DNA of 47,184 nt from a virus. The stretch's first letter is position 1; each line of letters starts with the position of its first letter. The position numbers and the translations under genes were made by a program. Positions 616 to 40,601 of this stretch are shown piece by piece. Location of the stretch: positions 1-47,184 of the IMG/VR virus record IMGVR_UViG_3300028007_000004, one strand, 5' to 3'. The notes beneath the pieces were generated by a model. The model did no database searches and was not told the origin of the DNA. It saw only the letters and a program-made list of their open reading frames with translations.

Positions 616-3426
616 TTAGTCTTTCATGTAATAGGGTGTTTCAAAACCTGCCGCATCCAGTGGAAGACCGGGTGCCCAATCAAGCGGTTCGCGCATGATG
701 TTAATAATTTCTTCCAAAGCACCGTCGTTGTCCTCATCGCACTCCACCACAATCTCATCATGGATAGACATAATGATCTGATAACCTTTTGCTGCCACCT
801 TCTTCATAATATCCGCAATCACGTCTCTGGCTGTGGCTTGTACGATGTTCTCGACCAGCTTACCACCATAAGTGTCAATAAGCTTCCACTGCTTCGTAGT
901 TTGATCCATACCCTCGTAACACAGCATTGAACCACCAAACTTACCAGGCTTCAACTTAGGACGCAAATAAGCAAGCGTTCTTCCGGATGGTAACTCTATA
1001 AACAATAAGCCTTTCTTGGTGTAGAATTTGAGGAAGTTAGCTGAGAGTCTTACGGGGTTACCTTCGACAGCTGATATGACAGCGTGTTCCACCAAAGTCC
1101 ATAAATTAACTATCTTCTGGTTAGCGGCTCTCCATGCATCAATAAGCGGTTTGAGTTCTGCTTCTTGCAAACCCATCTTCAACGCGCCCATATTAATCAG
1201 AGCATTGGGGCCGCCACCAAAACCACAATTATGTACAAGTACTCCCGATACAGTGAAACGGTTATTTGGTCCAGCGTTTAGGATGTCATAGACTTCTACG
1301 CCTGTTTCAATGCCGTTAAAACGACAATCCTTCCTTATATCGGAAGAAGCATAAAGCGCTACCTCGTCAAATCCCGTTTCAAGTAAATCGTAGTTACCAA
1401 CCACAACTTGAATTAAAGAGTAGCTGTTGTAAGGGTCTACCCAAACGATATGGTCCATTGTGGCTTTTAGCGGACCATAATGAATAATATCTCTTATACC
1501 TCTGTACACAACACCTCCATGGCTCACCCAATTTTCACCATCCCAAACTTTATGGGCGAGCGTTACATCTTGAATAGGCACAAGACCTTGATGGGTAAGC
1601 ACAAGTTCATCTTTAGCAATACAAGCTAATTCTGCCACTTTACCTTTCTGTCTGAGTGGTGATCCTTTACCAATCGTCTCAATAGGCACTTTAAACATTT
1701 GGGATGCTGACGCTTCGTATATTTTACCATGTGTGTTAAACACATCTAATCTCCATTTCTCACCAGCGAACCAAGCGATTACACGGGCTTCGATGGCGGA
1801 TAAGTCGACAACGGTTAGTTTCTTGCCTTTTGGTGCAACAAAAGCAGTTCTAATCAGCTGAGAAAGCGTGTCAGGTACATTACCAAAAGCAAGTTCAAGG
1901 TTCTCTGCGTCACCATCAAGTACGAGCTGACGAGCAAAATCAATATCCGGTATTTTGTTTTGTGGAAGATTTTGCACCTGCACCAATCTACCTGAATTAG
2001 ATACAATTCTACCGTCGCACCAAAACCGGTTGTTTGGTCCAGCGTTAATGATGTCGTAAGTAGAAATTTGAAACTGCGTATCAAAAAAAGGATTCTCCGG
2101 TTTTACACCGCTAACGTGCCACTCTCGATAAGCCTCACCTTTCCATAATGGTAAATTTAACCTCTTTGCTTCGCCGAGAGAAATTTTCATATCTGGATCA
2201 ACAAAAACTTTATGCTCCGGTGTTGCTGTAACACCATCGTGTTCAATAACAAATTTCTCACCGCTGTAAACAACACCTTCGTGAAAAACCCATTGCAAAC
2301 CATCAAAAACTTGATCGGTTATTTCTACCTCCTCAATAGGCTTTTTTCCTATCCATCCTTCATCTGTCTTAACTAGAACCAAAGAACCCTCAGCAATACA
2401 CCACCGGCCTGTCCTCGCAGCACCGTAGAACTGCAACAAGCCACGGATGCGTCCGTCTTTACAAACGCAGTGCGCCATGGCTAAATATTTTTTAACAGAG
2501 GTTTTGGATAGTTCCTGACGAATTTCGAGCATCCGTTGAATATGACTTTCGCTGTATTTCTTCATAAGATCCGGAACGTCTGCTTTACGAAGTGTTTGTA
2601 TTTCTTCTCCGGTCTCGTATTCTAACCAACGTATCACTTGCGATACGCTGTTTGGGTTTTCTAATTTGGTCAGTTCCTTTGCTTCTTCAATCAATCTTGC
2701 TTTATACGCCTCATCAATAATGATGGCGTTTTTTACGAGCCTCTTATTGATCTTAACACCATAGTCATTGATTTGCTGATCAAGATGCCACAAGCGCATT
2801 TCGCTTTCAGGAACAGTAAAAAAGTCCAGCTTGTTTCTGATTGATAATTCTACCTCAACGTCTTTCACACAGTAATTCAAAAACTGCCGCCACTTCTCAG
2901 GCGAATGCTCCGGCAGGTTTCTTGTTCTTTCGTTATTAGCTTTGGTTGGTTTACACGGCAGTGAAAAATATCTAATCAATTGTCTACCCGTCATATCTTT
3001 TTGCACGTTCAGTTTAAGCACTTCTGCTACTTGTGCAAGAGACATCGGAAGCCCAAGCATAGCACCTTTTACCATGGTGCACTCCCACTGCTCAATAGGT
3101 AAGTTAATCTTAAAGAAAGCCGACAAACAAGTTCTTTCAAAAGCCGCGTTGAAGGCGGTTTTAAGCACTTCGGGGTTTTGTAAGTCTTCGCAAAAAGACT
3201 CCATAAATTGCAAGTAATCTTTCCAAGCAAGCGGTCCGTATTTTTCAATGTACCAATCCGCGTCCATGTAGTCTTGTCTAATGTCTATGATTTTCACAGG
3301 CTCGCCGTCATAAGAGTAGGCAATCATCAACACTTCAAACTCCGGATGCTCTGCGTATTTGTAAACACCTGACTTGATCAAATCAACGGGTGAGTAGGTT
3401 TCAATGTCTATGGATAGTGTTCTCAT
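616..3426 (-). CDS. polA: Family A DNA polymerase with 3'-5' exonuclease domain and two inteins
   Basis: This is the replicative polymerase, 936 residues before splicing and about 669 after. The DEDDy exonuclease motifs are DIETYSP (7-13), NAAFE (93-97) and YCVKD (185-189). The polymerase part has the template-binding TGRW...SGR segment (split by intein 1), motif A DLSAIEAR (541-548), motif B R592...K596 (split by intein 2) and motif C HDE (889-891). The residue equivalent to E. coli Phe762 is Leu600. I chose the ATG at 3426 because it overlaps the upstream TGA as ATGA and starts directly before the exonuclease strand; an in-frame ATG at 3450 would add eight residues. It belongs with the DUF2815 and DUF2800 genes upstream. 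Confidence 0.93.
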   Translation of the reverse strand: MRTLSIDIETYSPVDLIKSGVYKYAEHPEFEVLMIAYSYDGEPVKIIDIRQDYMDADWYIEKYGPLAWKDYLQFMESFCEDLQNPEVLKTAFNAAFERTCLSAFFKINLPIEQWECTMVKGAMLGLPMSLAQVAEVLKLNVQKDMTGRQLIRYFSLPCKPTKANNERTRNLPEHSPEKWRQFLNYCVKDVEVELSIRNKLDFFTVPESEMRLWHLDQQINDYGVKINKRLVKNAIIIDEAYKARLIEEAKELTKLENPNSVSQVIRWLEYETGEEIQTLRKADVPDLMKKYSESHIQRMLEIRQELSKTSVKKYLAMAHCVCKDGRIRGLLQFYGAARTGRWCIAEGSLVLVKTDEGWIGKKPIEEVEITDQVFDGLQWVFHEGVVYSGEKFVIEHDGVTATPEHKVFVDPDMKISLGEAKRLNLPLWKGEAYREWHVSGVKPENPFFDTQFQISTYDIINAGPNNRFWCDGRIVSNSGRLVQVQNLPQNKIPDIDFARQLVLDGDAENLELAFGNVPDTLSQLIRTAFVAPKGKKLTVVDLSAIEARVIAWFAGEKWRLDVFNTHGKIYEASASQMFKVPIETIGKGSPLRQKGKVAELACIAKDELVLTHQGLVPIQDVTLAHKVWDGENWVSHGGVVYRGIRDIIHYGPLKATMDHIVWVDPYNSYSLIQVVVGNYDLLETGFDEVALYASSDIRKDCRFNGIETGVEVYDILNAGPNNRFTVSGVLVHNCGFGGGPNALINMGALKMGLQEAELKPLIDAWRAANQKIVNLWTLVEHAVISAVEGNPVRLSANFLKFYTKKGLLFIELPSGRTLAYLRPKLKPGKFGGSMLCYEGMDQTTKQWKLIDTYGGKLVENIVQATARDVIADIMKKVAAKGYQIIMSIHDEIVVECDEDNDGALEEIINIMREPLDWAPGLPLDAAGFETPYYMKD
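1228..1623 (-). other. Mini-intein 2 in PolA (motif B / O-helix)
   Basis: This is a 132-residue in-frame insertion. It starts CIAKDELVLTHQG (block A, Cys1), has TMDH as block B, and ends YDILNAGPNNRF...LVHN (blocks F and G), with Cys as the +1 extein residue. Removing it joins KVAELA to CGFGGG and restores motif B with correct spacing. There is no room for a homing endonuclease domain, so it is a mini-intein expected to self-splice. Splicing is inferred from intact catalytic residues. Confidence 0.88.
1996..2400 (-). other. Mini-intein 1 in PolA (TGRW|SGR motif)
   Basis: This is a 135-residue in-frame insertion starting CIAEGSLVLVKT (block A), with TPEH as block B and ending YDIINAGPNNRF...RIVSN, +1 residue Ser. 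Removing it joins GAARTGRW to SGRLVQVQNLP, the normal primer-template contact motif of phage PolA. The penultimate residue is Ser rather than the usual His. It is clearly related to intein 2 and also lacks an endonuclease domain. Confidence 0.88.
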
Positions 3427-3707
3427 AGTCTTGTAATTGTTTTTGGCCAATTAAGTATTTCGTGATGTGCGTTGTGGAATTGCTTGAATATTTTGCAAGC
3501 GTCTGCTTCATCGTATCTTCTACGCCACACCCACACACAACCGTAAAAAAGTTCGGTCTCAGTGCATGTAATCTCGAATGCTGCAACCGGAAACAAATCT
3601 GTTTGATACTCTATACGCATATTTGCATCCGAAGCAATTTCACGAACAGACGTGAACCCGTTCGCCATGTGCAAGCGACCACCTTTATGATAAAAATAGA
3701 TTAGCAT
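3423..3707 (-). CDS. Small protein upstream of PolA, function unknown
   Basis: This is a 94-residue ORF (81 residues if the internal ATG at 3668 is used). The N-terminal part (IYFYHKGGRLHMANGF) reads as a beta hairpin; the rest has several aromatic residues, a Cys at an EITCTETE strand and a VWVWRRRYDEA segment. It ends in an ATGA overlap with polA, which argues for translational coupling. The ATG at 3707 is only a few bases beyond the hairpin at 3714-3743, so its expression probably depends on read-through. No family recognised. Confidence 0.6.
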   Translation of the reverse strand: MLIYFYHKGGRLHMANGFTSVREIASDANMRIEYQTDLFPVAAFEITCTETELFYGCVWVWRRRYDEADACKIFKQFHNAHHEILNWPKTITRL

Positions 3708-34068: not shown

Positions 34069-34086
34069 GTTATTTGGTTTAGAGCA

Positions 34087-34118
34087 TAAAGGTAGGGAAG
34101 TTGATTTAGTTAACCAAA
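34087..34118 (-). promoter_or_regulatory. Promoter for the operon leading into the terminase genes
   Basis: TTTG (34118-34115) is followed after 20 bases by TACCTTTA (34094-34087), one mismatch from TAnnTTTG. The -33 box is again TTTGGTTA. ATG at 34068 lies 19 bases further. Confidence 0.65.
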
Positions 34119-34477
34119 GAAAATGGTTAAATATTTGAGAAAGTGGTTTTGTGGGGGTTTGGTTGATCTGGGAGGTGGTAAACTACTTTGAAATACAAAG
34201 TGCTTTGAGTTTCAATGTTGATAGGGGTTTTGGTAGATATTTGGTTAAATGATTGAGCATTGGAAAAGTGGATATGGTGGGTGATCCAATAAGGAGGGGC
34301 GGCCGGTAGAAGCTATCCCCCGTATGGGGTAGGGTGGCATCCGCCATAAGCACAAATAAACCTGTCAAACCGTCTGATAATCAACCTTATAATATTTATT
34401 ATGTTAAATGAGTGCTTGAATGGGTTGAATATCAGCAACTTATAAACCCCTCCCCTACCCTACTGTAAATAAGAAAA

Positions 34478-34493
34478 GCCCGTGAAAACGGGC
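34478..34493 (-). terminator. Terminator of the peptidase operon
   Basis: GCCCGT (34478-34483) pairs with ACGGGC (34488-34493) around a GAAA loop in the plus reading. The minus transcript continues with UUUUCUUAUU. It lies about 185 bases below the peptidase stop codon. Confidence 0.7.
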
Positions 34494-34582
34494 CTTTGAT
34501 AGTGGATTACCACTTTTCAACCTTACGATCTTATGATAATCAGTTGAATATCAATAAGTTAATGTTTGTTCTGATGGGTTTG

Positions 34583-34680
34583 GTGGGAAAATTTGTCCAA
34601 TTTTTTCCTAAATATTGGTACTTAGTGGGAAAATTGGACGAAAACCTGGGACTTTTGAGGGGTAAAGTGGGAAAAATTTA
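34583..34680. repeat. Three GTGGGAAAA repeats at exact 42-base spacing
   Basis: GTGGGAAAA begins at 34583, 34625 and 34667. The first two copies are also part of an inverted pair, GTCCAATTTT (34595-34604) with AAAATTGGAC (34630-34639). The third runs into the stop codon of the peptidase gene. Four helical turns between copies would place bound proteins on one face of the DNA. Confidence 0.65.
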
Positions 34681-37111: not shown

Positions 37112-37143
37112 CAAAGATATAAATGGTTAATTGATTAACCAAA
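37112..37143 (-). promoter_or_regulatory. Promoter for the 491-residue protein / peptidase operon
   Basis: TTTG (37143-37140) is followed after 20 bases by TATCTTTG (37119-37112), an exact -7 match. The -33 box is TTTGGTTA. ATG at 37081. Confidence 0.78.
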
Positions 37144-37235: not shown

Positions 37236-37463
37236 ATGAAAATGATTCAACTAACCGAAAACACAGCAAATGCAAAAACATTGCAAATATCAGTAAGCAG
37301 TAAAGTTTTTAAAACATTAGAAGCCATCCAATATGAAGGGGGTTATTTAAGCTTCCATTTAACTTTAGTGGATGATAAAGTAAAAACCGATATTAATAGT
37401 AATGATAAAACTAAATTATCTGAATTTTTAAAATCGGTTTTTAATTACCAACCTGTTAAATGA
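37236..37463 (+). CDS. Small plus-strand protein, function unknown
   Basis: The 75-residue protein has beta strands (TLQISVSSKVF; GGYLSFHLTLVDDKVKT) followed by a C-terminal helix (KTKLSEFLKSVFNYQ), a compact single domain. It is divergent from the 491-residue protein gene and is translationally coupled to the next small gene by ATGA. Location beside two repeat arrays and its own promoter would suit a small regulator, but there is no DNA-binding motif. Confidence 0.65.
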   Translation: MKMIQLTENTANAKTLQISVSSKVFKTLEAIQYEGGYLSFHLTLVDDKVKTDINSNDKTKLSEFLKSVFNYQPVK

Positions 37464-37618
37464 TCCCCGTAATAATTATAAAGGAAACCAGTTCATACTA
37501 TTGCATCTACCATAGATATACTAATGAGCTGTTAAGGGATAACGCAGCAATAAGCCTAACTGCTTTACTGCTATCCTGCGCGTCCCTTCGCTGGGTTGTT
37601 ACTGATATTTTTGAATAA
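37460..37618 (+). CDS. 52-residue mini-protein coupled to the 75-residue gene
   Basis: The ATG at 37460 overlaps the previous TGA (ATGA). The product starts MIPVIIIKETSSYYCIYHRY and has a hydrophobic stretch AAISLTALLLSCASLRWVVT that may be a membrane helix. A terminator lies 24 bases after the stop. Coupling and terminator placement support a real gene. Function unknown. Confidence 0.55.
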   Translation: MIPVIIIKETSSYYCIYHRYTNELLRDNAAISLTALLLSCASLRWVVTDIFE

Positions 37619-37641
37619 CTGACATAACGGACTCAACCTTA

Positions 37642-37671
37642 CCCCGTAAAAGTTTAACCCCTTTTACGGGG
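37642..37671 (+). terminator. Terminator of the plus-strand mini-operon
   Basis: CCCCGTAAAAG (37642-37652) pairs perfectly with CTTTTACGGGG (37661-37671), followed by TTTT. Confidence 0.85.
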
Positions 37672-37726
37672 TTTTGTGCGTTTGCTCAATCCGTACTAAA
37701 ATGATCCGACAAATTCAGCAAAAATT

Positions 37727-37820
37727 TGTAGTGTTTTTACTACATAAAAATGTAGTGTTATTACTACAAAACGTGTAGTGTTATTACTACAAACGCTTGT
37801 AGTGATATTACTACAAGCGT
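37727..37820. repeat. Four 18-base palindromes at 23-24 base spacing
   Basis: Copies at 37727-37744, 37751-37768, 37774-37791 and 37798-37815 have TGTAGT/ACTACA arms around six variable AT-rich bases. The last extends to an 11-base perfect arm (ACGCTTGTAGT, 37793-37820). Spacing of just over two helical turns suggests cooperative binding of a dimeric protein. No gene starts within 100 bases downstream on the plus strand, so an origin or partition site is as likely as an operator. Confidence 0.85.
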
Positions 37821-37827
37821 TTCAACC

Positions 37828-37904
37828 CACCAGAGTTTTTTGATCCAAAAATGACACCAGAGTTTTTTGATCCAAAAATGACACCAGAGTTTTTTGATCC
37901 AAAA
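37828..37904. repeat. Three 27-base direct repeats (iteron-like)
   Basis: Copies begin at 37828, 37855 and 37882. They are identical over the first 23 bases, and each holds CACCAGAG followed by TTTTTTGATCCAAAA, a near-palindrome around GATC. The third copy stops at the HNH gene's stop codon, which suggests the endonuclease gene was inserted into or beside the array. Confidence 0.88.
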
Positions 37905-38462
37905 TTACTCTTGTGATTTTATATCATCCCCGTAAATTTCTAATCGTGCTTTTCTGTACGCTTCGTGTGCTTGTTCTGGTGTAGAAAAATATCCTAAATG
38001 CAAATTAGTCTTTTTAATCGGACACCATATTTGCCCTGCCCATCTTATTCCGTATTTTTTAGTTTGTTTACTTCTAACACCTACATAAGGTGCTTTTCTA
38101 TCCCATTTAACATTTTTAAAAGTTAAATTATTTATTCTTTTACAAGCTCTTAAATTGTGAATAGTAAAATTACTAGGATTACCATCTATGTGGTCTACGT
38201 CCTCATTACTTTCAAGTGTTCTTACAAAACTCTCAAACATAATCCTGTGTAACATTCTACGTTGCCCTTGTAGATGTACGCAAACATATCCATCTTTGTC
38301 TTTGTCTTTAGACACTGTCTTAATAATACCTTTTATAAAAAGTTCCCACTTCTTACCTAACTTGCTTTTAACCTCAACCCACCTATCAAGTGATCGAACA
38401 TTTCCTTGGTCACTTACTTCGTAAATACCTTCAAAACCTCTAATTGGTTTCCACTGCTCCAT
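37905..38462 (-). CDS. HNH homing endonuclease with NUMOD4 and AP2 domains
   Basis: This 185-residue protein has an N-terminal NUMOD4 (WKPIRGFEGIYEVSDQGNVRSL, residues 4-25), an HNH core (LHRIMFESFV...VDHIDGNPSNFTIHNLRA, about 71-107) and a C-terminal AP2 domain (YVGVRSKQTKKYGIRWAGQI...LGYFSTPEQAHEAYRKAR). All three are typical parts of free-standing phage homing endonucleases. Catalytic His residues are present. It lies between the helicase gene and the direct repeats, interrupting the replication arm. Confidence 0.92.
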   Translation of the reverse strand: MEQWKPIRGFEGIYEVSDQGNVRSLDRWVEVKSKLGKKWELFIKGIIKTVSKDKDKDGYVCVHLQGQRRMLHRIMFESFVRTLESNEDVDHIDGNPSNFTIHNLRACKRINNLTFKNVKWDRKAPYVGVRSKQTKKYGIRWAGQIWCPIKKTNLHLGYFSTPEQAHEAYRKARLEIYGDDIKSQE

Positions 38463-40261: not shown

Positions 40262-40309
40262 TTCTTTAACCTTTTTTATTGTTGGCGGTGTTGACATAGT
40301 AAAAATCGC

Positions 40310-40400
40310 AAAAAGTTAAAAACCCTATATATTACGTAAATATACCCCCTATATAACTTATTATTACTATATATACCTATATTTTCTAATTATAGTGTAT
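40310..40400. other. AT-rich stretch, possible DNA unwinding element
   Basis: About 90 bases are almost entirely A and T, with short Cs, rich in TATATA-type steps. It directly adjoins the TACTATGCCA repeats and separates the primase and nuclease genes. Together they have the make-up of an iteron-type replication origin. Confidence 0.55.
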
Positions 40401-40571
40401 TTTACTATGCCATTATGCCAAAGTGGTTCAAACCCTTTACTGTATTGCGTTTGACTTGGCATAGTAAATGGCATAGTAGAATTTTTTTACTATGCCATTA
40501 TGCCAACACTTCTGAATTGCTTGGCATAGTATAATTTTACTACTCCACGTACTATGCCACGTACTATGCCA
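40400..40571. repeat. Seven TACTATGCCA iterons in both orientations
   Basis: The 10-base motif is at 40403, 40488, 40550 and 40562 (plus) and 40457, 40469 and 40522 (minus). Two extra TTATGCCAA half-copies lie at 40413 and 40498, making a 22-base block repeated at 40400-40421 and 40485-40506. Two pairs (40457/40469 and 40550/40562) are spaced 12 bases. This fills the gap between primase and VRR-NUC genes and has no coding content. Confidence 0.88.
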
Positions 40572-40601
40572 CAAAATAAAGAGCTTTTTTTGGTTAAACA
40601 T

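Follow-up and report, generated by a model that had tools for sequence, protein, structure and literature searches.

Tandem palindromes are typical of partition, packaging and recombination sites, and in extragenic positions they also characterize REP/BIME elements. The origin of phage lambda comprises four iterons and a flanking AT-rich tract (PMC7466680), and in SaPIs the origin iterons immediately follow the Rep helicase gene (PMC7581432). Our searches found no described origin for the VapE replication module and no paper on VapE origins or on palindromes in Bacteroidetes phages. Here we compare these systems with an array of four palindromes in a 47,184-base virus record, a phage contig analyzed over its whole length (the window), whose replication module is of the PolA/VapE/VRR-NUC/SNF2 kind. 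Like ori-lambda, the array has four tandem dyads of ~18 bp and an adjacent AT-rich element; like SaPI Rep-type origins, it consists of short repeated sites within the replication region; and it has the same 6-base arms and 6-base centre length as operators of TetR/TauD, ArsR/HTH_20 and HipB-like XRE genes. Unlike REP/BIME elements, it is a single locus, being the one such cluster in the phage, and no such tandem palindromes occur in 395 Bacteroidota genomes (seed genome excepted).

The window contains four exact copies of TGTAGT-N6-ACTACA, each specified at 12 bases, within 89 bp (Table 1). This confirms the 18-base palindromes repeating every 23–24 bases that an earlier note on this DNA had described; its starting coordinate also holds, although the last palindrome ends at 37815 and not at 37820. 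No further site with zero or one mismatch occurs in the 47,184 bases, for which a dinucleotide model predicts 0.0025 single exact sites, and tandem arrays of at least two palindromes with any 6-base arms arose in 0 of 40 Markov-simulated windows. Among ~0.74 Mb of fetched viral DNA, at least three copies were found besides the array only in contigs L007, where they belong to an identical repeated 22-bp unit, and L163, where they lie in a simple-repeat coding region. Neither the array nor the neighboring 27-bp repeat was found in phage records, plasmid records or IMG/VR, and the array has no Rfam match; relaxed-arm matches in IMG/VR were mostly simple repeats inside coding regions and were set aside as background. 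A search for VapE relatives returned two distant VapE loci, TerL relatives lack both the array and the SNF2 gene, and no close relatives of the SNF2 protein or of a 491-aa protein were found; none of these searches turned up a relative with the array. The start-to-start spacings of 24, 23 and 24 bp correspond to 2.2–2.3 turns of B-DNA, so that the sites, earlier called phased, are evenly spaced and do not lie on one helical face.

Table 1. Coordinates of the palindrome array, its neighbors and related features in the window
Feature	Position	Strand	Description
75-aa ORF of rightward unit	37236..37463	+	no family match
52-aa ORF	37460..37618	+	overlaps 75-aa ORF by ATGA
Terminator of rightward two-ORF unit	37641..37672	+	hairpin CCCCGTAAAAG/CTTTTACGGGG and T-run
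Palindrome 1	37727..37744		TGTAGT GTTTTT ACTACA
Palindrome 2	37751..37768		TGTAGT GTTATT ACTACA
Palindrome 3	37774..37791		TGTAGT GTTATT ACTACA
Palindrome 4	37798..37815		TGTAGT GATATT ACTACA
Longer inverted repeat around palindrome 4	37791..37822		16-nt arms, 94% complementary
Three tandem 27-bp repeats CACCAGAGTTTTTTGATCCAAAAATGA	37828..37908		33% G+C; adjoin array, abut HNH stop codon
NUMOD4/HNH/AP2 homing-type endonuclease	37905..38462	-	last gene of leftward replication operon
Candidate origin, outside array	40298..40601		seven TGGCATAGTA iterons, both orientations; between vapE and VRR-NUC gene
TTTGGTTAA box copies	6304, 6318, 34110, 34240, 37135, 40589		

Variation in the array spares the arms. 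Across the four copies, 0/12 arm columns are variable against 8/12 non-arm columns (P = 6.7e-4; the latter are 6 centre columns and, in our alignment, 6 linker columns, and the numbers are small), in agreement with the selection on the arms suggested earlier. The varied centres that were also reported are an overstatement: 2/6 centre columns differ and all four centres share the one-orientation pattern G[TA]T[TA]TT, and it is the linkers (TAAAAA, AAACG and AACGCT) that vary throughout. Neutral tandem duplication of a single palindrome, which perhaps arrived with the HNH homing endonuclease, would suit an array with a second tandem repeat and a gene for a homing-type endonuclease as neighbors, and yet it leaves diverged linkers beside unchanged arms to be explained, the HNH endonuclease has relatives of only ~34% identity or less, and the array occurs in no phage record; we regard such an origin as unlikely, if a little less so than the other unlikely readings below that invoke partition or a decoy. 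Constancy of the arms after tandem duplication is, however, equally expected from selection for hairpins.

The array occupies a convergent gap, with a rightward two-ORF unit on its left and, on its right, the leftward replication operon, which faces it with its 3′ end. Nearly all genes of the window point left, and in that direction replication genes are followed by the array and then by late genes (peptidase, terL, portal, tail, endolysin). Replication genes lie at both ends of the window, with an exonuclease, a ssDNA-binding protein and PolA at the left and a DNA methylase, VapE, VRR-NUC, SNF2 helicase and HNH endonuclease at the right, and they read as one leftward series only if the two ends of the genome are taken to be joined. 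The PolA-type DNA polymerase (616–3450) matches its family in three stretches, split by two intein-like (HINT) inserts. The region around the array is gene-free, as the earlier note held, in that no gene of at least 60 aa lies between 37464 and 37904, although the 52-aa ORF qualifies that description. The palindromes do lie past the plus-strand terminator, and no promoter or gene of at least 60 aa is placed such that they would obviously control it. The three 27-bp repeats appear to form one functional unit with the array; this stretch (37828–37916) is in frame, with 9 codons per repeat, and reads on the plus strand as the micro-ORF MTPEFFDPKMTPEFFDPKLLL.

Promoters of Bacteroidota type (TTG, 17–22 bases, TAnnTTTG) carrying a TTTGGTTAA box are found at the divergent junctions 6289/6341 and 37119, and no TTG-N17-22-TAnnTTTG promoter is present at the array. 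The box is present 6 times where 1.3 copies are expected, and every copy lies in a gap or at the end of a gene; several act as the −33 element of promoters of this type, and a palindrome, GGTTAATTGATTAACC, lies at 37125. Judged from promoter type and protein relatives alone, the host appears to be of Bacteroidota type.

The array might act as RNA, its transcribed hairpins ending or protecting the leftward replication transcript and the identity of the DNA copies being a by-product of duplication. Folding of either strand is much stronger than that of shuffled sequences (z = −5.0 and −7.0), on the plus strand G7 and T12 bring every stem to 7 pairs around a 4-base loop, and leftward transcripts leaving the HNH gene would meet no strong structure before the array, the scan having found no ordinary terminator in that direction between the replication operon and the rightward unit. 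The fold scores, however, follow trivially from the palindromes. Single hairpins reach only −2.4 to −3.0 kcal/mol, the extended hairpin of palindrome 4 being the only strong one (−12.1 kcal/mol), and against the GC-rich stem and U-tract of an intrinsic terminator the array has AT-rich stems and short U-tracts and was not reported by the terminator scan, whereas at its other convergent junction the phage uses ordinary GC-rich terminators for both strands. We consider a role as RNA doubtful, and since the single hairpins are weak, structure alone hardly explains the exact 12-base identity.

Because of these weak hairpins and the ordinary terminators at the other junction, we prefer to read the locus as a protein-bound array, and that it binds protein in some manner and for some use is probable. 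That the replication operon lacks an ordinary terminator ahead of the rightward unit, in a phage that has such terminators at its other junction, also speaks for this reading. As we infer them, protein binding, dimer state and action on transcription would combine as follows. Each palindrome would be the docking site of a small, two-fold symmetric, dimeric protein of the helix-turn-helix class, from phage or host, and four such dimers, one per 23–24 bp, would together cover ~90 bp. The resulting nucleoprotein block would separate the leftward replication operon from the rightward two-ORF unit and the late promoter region beyond it, and its likely effect would be to stop or silence transcription across the early/late junction. 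A four-dimer block or silencer at the early/late boundary is our tentative choice among specific roles; binding sites for a silencer, one of the functions named by the earlier note, are possible and close to this preferred reading. Against it, the sites are not a whole number of helical turns apart, and none of the small phage proteins scanned matches an HTH or ribbon-helix-helix family, which leaves no candidate binder; structure prediction without alignments gave low confidence for the 75-aa ORF (pLDDT 53) and for an 89-aa early protein (pLDDT 58). Nor do further palindrome sites occur at the phage's own promoters, which share TTTGGTTAA instead.

The TGTAGT palindrome word has been adopted repeatedly by different systems. 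Scanning 84,980 species genomes for two TGTAGT-N6-ACTACA copies within 30 bases returned 112 stretches, many of them from mycobacteria and Nocardia, where two copies of the palindrome separate a TetR-type gene from a TauD-like gene. Spirosoma, Roseivirga and relatives have a pair of copies ahead of an ArsR-type (HTH_20) gene, and the whole Roseivirga genome has no copies besides this operator pair. A HipB-like XRE gene is preceded by three copies, and other stretches precede AAA_14 ATPase genes or, in bacilli, an alcohol-dehydrogenase-like gene; the names TetR, TauD and dehydrogenase come from reading the translated sequences. Two Bacteroidota-like loci (L092 and L109) have tandem TGTAGT palindromes 33 bp apart before AAA_14-type ATPase genes, with a Pfam match in L092. 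Such repeated, independent adoption fits recognition of double-stranded DNA by a symmetric protein. The TetR, ArsR and XRE operators nevertheless count against a binding array in the form seen here, since they have 2–3 sites, mostly 24–51 bp apart, at the promoter of an adjacent regulator, while the array has four at 23–24 bp, no promoter, and neighbors without an HTH regulator match.

Phages use the same word in other arrangements. All 18 bases of palindrome 4 (TGTAGTGATATTACTACA) recur in L173 and L179, two of five phage contigs (with L175, L176 and L178) that carry 3–7 dispersed TGTAGTGAWWTCACTACA-like palindromes each and that we call marine, a guess from their sequences. Unlike the array, these are single sites, many of them 19–31 nt upstream of start codons, and this 5′-leader position also allows a role as RNA, including for the reading of the array as a transcribed element; no protein is common to these contigs and the window. 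Three loci of one Wallbacteria MAG (L028, L057 and L089) contain TGTAGTAAAATTACTACAAATTTGTAGTAATTTTACTACA, in this or the reverse order; the protein next to the L028 site looks like a REP-associated transposase, with no Pfam match.

The array could also titrate a host repressor as a decoy, or be a cluster of host operators that the phage has captured, given the same arms in the Bacteroidota ArsR-type and HipB-like operators. This is highly improbable: the centres and spacing of host sites differ (TATTTG, 26 bp), the 18-mer TGTAGTGWTATTACTACA is absent from 395 Bacteroidota genomes, and short-linker tandem palindromes occur among these only in the seed genome. A host repeat as source of the array was rejected on the same absences.

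The earlier suggestion of an origin is weakened by a stronger set of iterons. The strongest short-repeat cluster of the whole window in a repeat scan is not the array but seven TGGCATAGTA copies at 40403–40571, directly downstream of vapE and beside a stretch of 21% G+C. SaPI origins occupy the corresponding place behind the Rep helicase gene, and by this analogy the phage probably replicates from 40298–40601, whose iterons immediately follow the initiator helicase gene. The array, in contrast, is palindromic, lies 2.6 kb further downstream and shares neither position nor any word with this cluster; it is probably not the main replication origin.

Comparison with other phages suggests that iterons in the vapE gap are the likely conserved origin of the VapE replication module. 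The gap after vapE holds 5–8 copies of one word each in L009, Listeria LWP01, Enterococcus phiFL4A, Staphylococcus 2638A and StauST398-2, Clostridioides phiCDKH02 and Dulem virus 37 (0/200 composition shuffles as extreme), and a weaker cluster in Streptococcus Javan405 (P = 0.01). The gap holds the top repeat cluster of the stretch examined in all iteron-bearing comparison phages but 2638A. The words mostly differ between VapE-module phages, TGTCAACA being common to LWP01 and phiCDKH02. Bacteroides BT16 has a long vapE gap without an iteron cluster, and Croceibacter P2559Y, Elizabethkingia TCUEAP1 and Bacteroides BF486P2 have no gap at this position.

The four-dyad layout does resemble ori-lambda (PMC7466680), and the array might be a second, lambda-like origin, in which the 18-bp dyads would be iterons for an O-like initiator and the AT-rich 27-bp repeats the unwinding element. 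That the replication module ends at the array agrees with this, as do phage contigs L155 and L158, where GTAGT-N6-ACTAC repeats 22–24 bp apart lie inside HTH_36 initiator-like genes (the HTH_36 match of L158 is sub-threshold). Yet the conserved VapE-type position, where an origin is expected in this phage, is already filled by a separate cluster of seven iterons with an AT-rich stretch, no O-like wHTH initiator was seen among the proteins scanned, and the array lies between genes and not, as in lambda, within an initiator gene. GC skew keeps its sign at the array, a weak test since nearly all genes point left. We judge a second origin unlikely, and it is a shade more unlikely still that the array is a second nucleoprotein locus of lambda-origin layout, switching replication mode or late transcription through an unrecognized phage protein.

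A centromere-like partition, packaging or recombination site would account for tandem palindromes as such, and with no integrase recognized among the proteins scanned a plasmid-like prophage is conceivable. The partition site of the earlier note nonetheless finds no partner, as ParA, ParB and ParM families are unmatched among the proteins scanned, and neither is there a recombinase match. The likely terS is 5 kb from the array, and a gene-poor stretch of 600 bp (34070–34680) with GTGGGAAAATT-type direct repeats, ~1.3 kb upstream of terS, is nearer to it; this stretch is itself a possible packaging site. A role of the array in any of these three processes is improbable.

The iterons downstream of vapE offer a directly testable candidate for the origin of a replication module that is very common in phages, and they may matter more than the array, as such clusters span phages of Bacillota-type and Bacteroidota-type hosts. 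The array could serve as bait for finding its binding protein and, if the preferred reading of a protein-bound block at the early/late boundary is true, would help to show how early and late transcription are insulated or switched in phages that infect little-studied bacteria.
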